Shown here: piece by piece, positions 25,428 to 29,895 of the stretch
How the letters are laid out: each line of letters starts with the position of its first letter
How positions within the stretch are numbered: position 1 is the stretch's first letter
DNA from: Thermoplasmatales archaeon BRNA1
GTDB lineage: Archaea; Thermoplasmatota; Thermoplasmata; Methanomassiliicoccales; Methanomethylophilaceae
Assembly: GCA_000350305.1 (NCBI GenBank)
Contig: CP002916.1
Span: 496,001 to 560,000, forward strand
DNA length: 64,000 bases
Reading direction: 5' to 3'
Translations under genes and position numbers: made by a program
Notes under the pieces: generated by a model
Databases searched by the model: none
The model's input: only the letters and a program-made list of their open reading frames with translations
Told to the model about the DNA's origin: nothing

Positions 25428-28064
<2,637 letters not shown>

Positions 28065-28243
28065 TTTGTTCACTGCGCGCGCCTATAAAACAAGGATATT
28101 TAAGGTTGGACTCTGGGGACCGTTCGGGCACCGAGGCGCATTTGGATGGATTTTCGATATGTGCCAGACTCGGAACGACGGTGTTGTTTTATATGTTAAA
28201 CACAATCGCTTCCCGTTCGTTTCCCCGAGCGTCTGAAACGGGA

Positions 28244-28411: not shown

Positions 28412-28500
28412 GACGGCCGCGACGGTTTCCGGACGGCGGATGCTGCCGCGTTTCCGTTCAACGGCGTTTATTTCTATTTTCAACGTGTTAACCTCCCATT

Positions 28501-29895
28501 ATGAAATCCCTCATCGAAGGTGAGACGGAGAAAAGGCTCAACAGGGCACAGATGGAACTTGCGCAGAGGGATGTCCCGGTCCTCATCGTCTTCGAGGGAG
28601 GGTCCGGACGCGTCATCAGCCGCGTGGTCAACGAGATCGCACGTTCCCTGGAGCCCCGCTGCGTCACCTACCACCACTTCGATGTCATGAAAAGCGGTCC
28701 GAGGGCGCTCGCCAACATGGTCGAGGCCACACCCGGAAAAGGCGAGATCGCCCTCTTCGACCGTTCGTGGTACTCCATGTTCCTTGAGAAGTTCAACGGC
28801 GTGAAGGGCGGTCTGGCGGAAGGCCTGAAGGTAATCAGGGCCTTCGAGGAGTACCTCCAGGACAACGGCACCTACCTCATCAAGATCGACCTCAGCGTCA
28901 CCCCCGAGGCGATGAAGGACTATGCCGAGCAGTACCGCCCGTTCACCCCCCTTTCCGGCACCTTCCTCTCCGTGGACCGCATTGACCGTGTCAAGTACTG
29001 GGCGATGGCCGACGAGATGATCTCCGGCACCGACACAGACCGCGCCCCGTGGGACAGGATCCAGGTTGGGGAGATAGCGGAGACGTTGAACAAGGTCGCG
29101 GAGGCCATCGCCGGACGCTTCGAGAGGTGCCTGAAGAACGCCAAATGGAAGGCCCCGTCCAAGCACGCGGTGTCCTAGCAGTACCCCAATCCCCGCAAGG
29201 GACTGGAACAGTGCCCGGATGTAGAGAAGTTCAAGAAGAGGATGGACAGGCTCAGTACCGATCTCGAGGGACTGCAGATCCTCCTCTCCCTATCGGGCAT
29301 GTCCGTGGTCCTCGTGTTCGAGGGATGGGACGCCGCCGGCAAGGGAGGATGCATCAAGCACATAGCCCACGCCCTCAACCCCCGCGGATATCTCATCGAC
29401 CGTGTGAAGAAACCCACCGCCACCGACCTAGCCCACACCTACCTGTGGAGGTTCGCATCGTATATGCCCAGGCCCGGCCACATATCCATCTTCGACCGCA
29501 GCTGGTACGGCAGGATGATGGTGGAGCCCATCGAGGGATTCTGCACCCCCGAGGAGTACTCCCGCTCCGCCGACGAGATCAACACCATGGAACACATGCT
29601 GGCGGATTCCGGGGCGATCGTCATCAAGTTCTGGCTGGACATCACGAAGGACGAGCAGGAGGTCAGGTTCAACGCCAGGAAGGAGGACCCCCTCAAATCC
29701 TGGAAACTCACCGACGAGGACTGGAGGAACAGGGAGAAGTGGGACGTGTACGAGGAGTACGTCGACAGGATGATCGCCTCCACCAACACCCCGTACGCCC
29801 CCTGGGTGGTGGTCCCCGCCAACAACAAGAAAGCCGCACAGATGCAGGTGATGTCCGCCGTCGTCTCCGAGCTGAAGAAGCGCCTGGACATCTGA
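28501..29895 (+). CDS. Tandem-domain polyphosphate kinase 2 with in-frame amber (pyrrolysine) codon
   Basis: Transfers phosphate between polyphosphate and nucleotides. Read through TAG at 29176-29178 (codon 226) this is one 464-residue protein with two PPK2 domains. The N-terminal domain (about 1-215) has a degenerate P-loop, IVFEGGSGRVIS, yet keeps LFDRSWYSM. The C-terminal domain (about 245-464) has the intact VFEGWDAAGKGG, the second motif IFDRSWYGRMMVEP and HTYLWRF. This active/inactive pairing is normal for tandem PPK2. The 21 codons between TAG and the next ATG (29242) are open and protein-like (QYPNPRKGLEQCPDVEKF). No other gene here stops with TAG. If TAG is a stop, the second domain lacks a good start. 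Confidence 0.85.

Follow-up and report, generated by a model that had tools for sequence, protein, structure and literature searches.

An in-frame TAG between the two domains of a tandem polyphosphate kinase 2 in Thermoplasmatales archaeon BRNA1 is probably read as pyrrolysine

Within the 64,000-nucleotide stretch that was analysed here (the window), from the genome of Thermoplasmatales archaeon BRNA1, a methanogen of gut type, a forward-strand frame for two fused polyphosphate kinase 2 (PPK2) domains contains a single TAG at codon 226, is otherwise open and ends with TGA. The question is whether this TAG ends a protein, is a defect, or is read as pyrrolysine (Pyl), and whether it has any special role if it is read. 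An earlier note, made from the sequence letters, had proposed that the amber is decoded as Pyl in the linker between the domains, and that this ties polyphosphate metabolism to Pyl supply. In our analysis, it is very probable that the gene gives one 464-residue two-domain PPK2 by Pyl read-through and that the TAG is a nearly neutral point mutation. The features of the locus, in window coordinates, are:

28467..28474, + strand: TATA-like TTTATTTC, 34 bases 5' of the start ATG
28501..29895, + strand: tandem PPK2 gene read through the TAG, 464 residues and TGA; TIGR03708 match at residues 10-462; 29 full-length relatives
28501..29175, + strand: degenerate N-terminal PPK2 domain, 60 bits, no P-loop lysine, last helix ending at residue 212 in the model
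29176..29178, + strand: in-frame TAG at codon 226, within the unstructured linker (residues 213-243); predicted to encode pyrrolysine
29179..29892, + strand: end of the linker and intact C-terminal PPK2 domain, 273 bits, with GWDAAGKGG and DRSWYG

The earlier note's description of one frame, degenerate before the TAG and intact after it, was borne out by the profile matches, which were weak for residues 1-225 (60 bits) and strong for residues 227-464 (273 bits), and by TIGR03708, the model of two-domain polyP:AMP phosphotransferases, which runs unbroken over the read-through product (profile positions 23-493, 384 bits). The N-terminal P-loop is FEGGSGRVISR, without GK, and because the P-loop lysine is missing this domain is predicted to be inactive. 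The C-terminal domain has an intact P-loop (FEGWDAAGKGG) and DRSWYG, and its key residues are invariant in 30 sequences. The 21 codons after the TAG, which the earlier note had called open and protein-like, hold a conserved YPNPR motif (N230 and P231 near-invariant, R232 invariant). It had also found no good early start for the downstream half, and indeed the first ATG 3' of the TAG is at 29242, where the PPK2 domain begins. The spacing of the TATA-like sequence suggests that the mRNA could be leaderless. Upstream and divergent lies a large aconitase-like gene (window 25428-28073, - strand); an aconitase-like reading likewise adjoins the PPK2 gene at locus L006.

In Pseudomonas aeruginosa, a two-domain class II PPK2 consists of an inactive N-terminal and an active C-terminal domain, and the class II signature is a glycine after Walker B (PMC8776046). 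Here, the two PPK2 domains are likewise fused with the P-loop lysine absent from the N-terminal one, as in two-domain class II enzymes, and the glycine is present in the active domain (FDRSWYGRMM, with G337 invariant in the 30 sequences). The AlphaFold2 model of the read-through product has a mean pLDDT of 89.7 and places residue 226 in a loop between helices 192-212 and 244-265. Its best PDB match, by both sequence and fold, is 3CZP (P. aeruginosa PPK2C/PA3455), which it matches in fold over the full length and resembles in its predicted inactive-active domain order; however, the identity in the fold alignment is 31%, and 3CZP contains no Pyl. The TIGR03708 score is below the equivalog cut-off (384 against 547.65 bits); the product exceeds the Pfam PPK2 cut-off and was filed as PPK2. 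The gene would encode a single 464-residue PPK2 of class II, probably a polyP:AMP phosphotransferase, with the substrate class assigned by resemblance and the activity predicted.

The earlier note had made its reading depend on pyl genes being present in the same genome, and they were found. The genome (G000 in our set; one contig, 1,461,105 bases, 1.46 Mb) encodes pylS, pylC, pylD and tRNA-Pyl in one cluster, with pylB elsewhere:

442315-443328: PylB, above the curated cut-off
990729-991415: PylS, above the cut-off of the C-terminal domain model, which is the part matched, as expected of the short form
Adjoining PylS: PylC and PylD, both above their curated cut-offs
991573-991643: tRNA-Pyl, 71 nt, CUA anticodon, just upstream of pylS, with the CTCTAAAACCTA anticodon loop

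The tRNA was identified by this anticodon loop and its position; it was not called by ARAGORN, and a plain fold of the candidate was not significantly stable. The cluster also contains a RamA-type activase, and two mtmB genes, each with one TAG, lie beside it. Both pylS and TAG-containing mtmB are also present in the related genomes G002, G007, G011, G012, G013 and G017. In G011, the first mtmB is complete and the second (contig C1, 1703269-1703573) was seen as short fragments only. A single aRF1 above the cut-off is encoded in BRNA1, and part of the PPK2 chains could still be terminated at the TAG. The locus combines an in-frame TAG crossed by continuous homology with a genome that carries pylS, pylT and pylBCD, so that decoding of codon 226 as Pyl in the interdomain linker is well supported; we infer the incorporation, and its efficiency, from sequence.

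Stop codon usage was surveyed with a simple codon-bias gene caller in the window and 20 further stretches (459 kb, about one third of the genome). The 424 called genes end with TGA (381), TAA (34) or TAG (9). The nine TAG-ended calls include the tandem PPK2, two calls that stop within conserved domains, those of CobN and of a carbon-nitrogen hydrolase, and one that stops before an apparent C-terminal tail of an ABC ATPase. In this sampled third of the genome, at least three of the nine are crossed by homology, and several others resemble calls on the wrong strand. TAG likewise crosses a radical SAM domain and a GNAT domain. Kivenson and colleagues reportedly described in Science in 2025 an archaeal 'Pyl code' in which all TAG codons are read as pyrrolysine, with support from proteomics; TAG is a general sense codon in that code, and BRNA1 may resemble it in this respect. 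The other likely Pyl proteins of BRNA1, in genome coordinates, are:

363026-364273, - strand: radical SAM protein
438646-439110, + strand: GNAT acetyltransferase
807118-807915, - strand: ABC ATPase
1098649-1099965, - strand: CobN-type chelatase
1155078-1155815, + strand: carbon-nitrogen hydrolase

When the relatives' ORFs were used in tblastn and only the best frames were kept, about 28,000 codons were covered and the PPK2 TAG was the sole stop crossed strongly in mid-gene, in a scan of otherwise low power. The same search without filtering was swamped by antisense frames, and a codon-bias scan for stops with coding sequence on both sides was useless, since antisense frames dominate in this GC-rich genome. 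Stop usage in G002 (64% GC) was excluded, as the gene caller gave antisense calls. In G011, codon 157 of a UDP-glucose epimerase-like frame is a TAG across which the frame continues, and TAG-crossed genes are therefore also found in genus members that have no TAG in PPK2.

Among 100 related genomes, the tandem gene was matched over nearly its whole length in 32 genomes of the same family besides BRNA1, and it stays one frame in every relative that has it. As the alignment suggested by the earlier note revealed, the relatives carry sense codons at the site of codon 226, for Lys, Arg, Glu, Leu, Pro, Ser, Thr, Ala or Cys; the codons include AAG, GAG, CTG and CCC, of which AAG and GAG are one step from TAG. 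Of the 32 genes, 29 were taken in full. An internal stop is absent from 27 of these, and the other two each have a single TAG (G002 at codon 111, G007 at codon 85), within the N-terminal PPK2 domain and in alignment columns different from that of codon 226. With this record in the relatives, the tandem frame across the BRNA1 TAG is not a product of chance. Six further archaeal PPK2 loci have no TAG. In the protein tree, the ambers of BRNA1, G002 and G007 are on three separate terminal branches, and because their alignment columns also differ, the simplest reading would be three separate gains. In all three genes, the domains that flank the TAG on both sides differ from relatives most often at the third position of codons; for the 18 linker codons 3' of the BRNA1 TAG, no clear signal of this kind was seen. 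The G007 amber lies on the N-terminal Walker B strand, at a place occupied in relatives by small residues only, and a bulky Pyl there would not be obviously harmless. The G002 PPK2 frame (loci L013 and L064) lacks its usual end stop; apart from the TAG at codon 111 it runs open over 1074 codons, counted from its start, passing through the following gene in a different frame and then entering an HMG-CoA synthase in frame. Either a lost stop codon or an assembly error could explain this.

If the TAG simply terminated translation, two proteins would be made, a 225-residue PPK2-like protein and a C-terminal kinase initiated at ATG 29242 or at a weak start close by. Single-domain PPK2 enzymes are known and this ATG coincides with the start of the catalytic domain, but it is separated from the TAG by 21 codons in which YPNPR is conserved, it has no properly spaced ribosome-binding site (judged by eye), the domains are fused in the relatives, and the same reading applied to the ambers of G002 and G007 would yield useless fragments; we consider two proteins very unlikely. 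A nonsense mutation in a recent pseudogene, or a sequencing error, could be suspected since the site is known from one genome of the species and an in-frame stop seen in just one genome can be an error. Yet both halves are intact and other lesions are absent, the full pyl system and several TAG-crossed domains in this genome make a sense reading expected, and the best-frame homology scan gave no convincing mid-gene crossing of TAA or TGA, which together make a defect the least probable account, with hardly any weight left to it.

A different reading accepts Pyl and gives the TAG a function, as a regulatory checkpoint that allows the active enzyme only when Pyl-tRNA is plentiful and otherwise leaves an N-terminal fragment, which would couple polyphosphate use to methylamine and Pyl supply, the link drawn in the earlier note. 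The TAG falls precisely into the gap that separates the inactive domain from the active one, where termination would abolish all catalysis, and three of the 10 genus members with the gene have a TAG before the active domain. However, it is missing in the other seven, the other two ambers are at different sites, two of the three would truncate within a domain, and it is unsurprising that all three lie in the first half of the gene (a chance of about 0.14 by length). Elsewhere, the BRNA1 genome also has PPK1 and PPX genes, near each other and with no internal stops in their matched domains, and several unrelated genes there are TAG-crossed. We regard a checkpoint as very improbable, and this part of the earlier note did not hold up: coupling to Pyl supply is possible but no positive evidence for it was found. 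A related idea, to which we give equally little credence, is that ambers are gained repeatedly 5' of the catalytic domain of the tandem PPK2, at three sites in three species, because translation that depends on Pyl is favoured; if true, polyphosphate use would respond to the methylamine and pyrrolysine state of the cell. The chance of at least two TAG-containing genes among the nine other genus homologues is 0.003-0.07 if 1-5% of genes carry TAG, uncorrected for the picking of this gene.

The preferred reading, Pyl read-through of a nearly neutral TAG, would most likely have its origin in a point mutation, for example from AAG, GAG or CAG, within a lineage that already used TAG as a sense codon and seldom as a stop, where a new TAG would therefore be nearly neutral. 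As the site is variable and unstructured and the amber is not retained in relatives, the TAG is best seen in this way, and it looks like an ordinary codon in neutral use, with no special switch.

In 'Candidatus Methanomethylophilus alvus', 16 Pyl proteins were predicted beyond the methylamine methyltransferases, and TAG makes up 1.6% of stops, from which it was concluded that Pyl is inserted efficiently and constitutively (Borrel et al. 2014, PMC4153887, Table 7). BRNA1 belongs to the same order and shares the pyl genes, rare terminal TAG, a TAG crossed by homology and homologues without it; in contrast, PPK2 is not in the M. alvus list, the species and gene are different, and the tandem PPK2 has TAG at three codons in three species. 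As cited in PMC4153887 and PMC8211752, the Pyl of tRNA-His guanylyltransferase, also not a methyltransferase, was attributed to neutral evolution (Heinemann et al. 2009); that protein is from another lineage, the Methanosarcinales, whereas the PPK2 case is known from sequence alone. Our literature search found no work joining pyrrolysine with polyphosphate kinase. Pyl outside methyltransferases is already known in the Methanomassiliicoccales, and the tandem PPK2 is a new case.

To summarise, the likely Pyl proteins now include a polyphosphate enzyme. Genes crossed by TAG in this way would be split by standard annotation, and the tandem PPK2 would be miscalled as two fragments. The apparently separate gain of ambers by one gene in three related species supports, directly and by comparison, the view that this lineage uses TAG like any ordinary sense codon.
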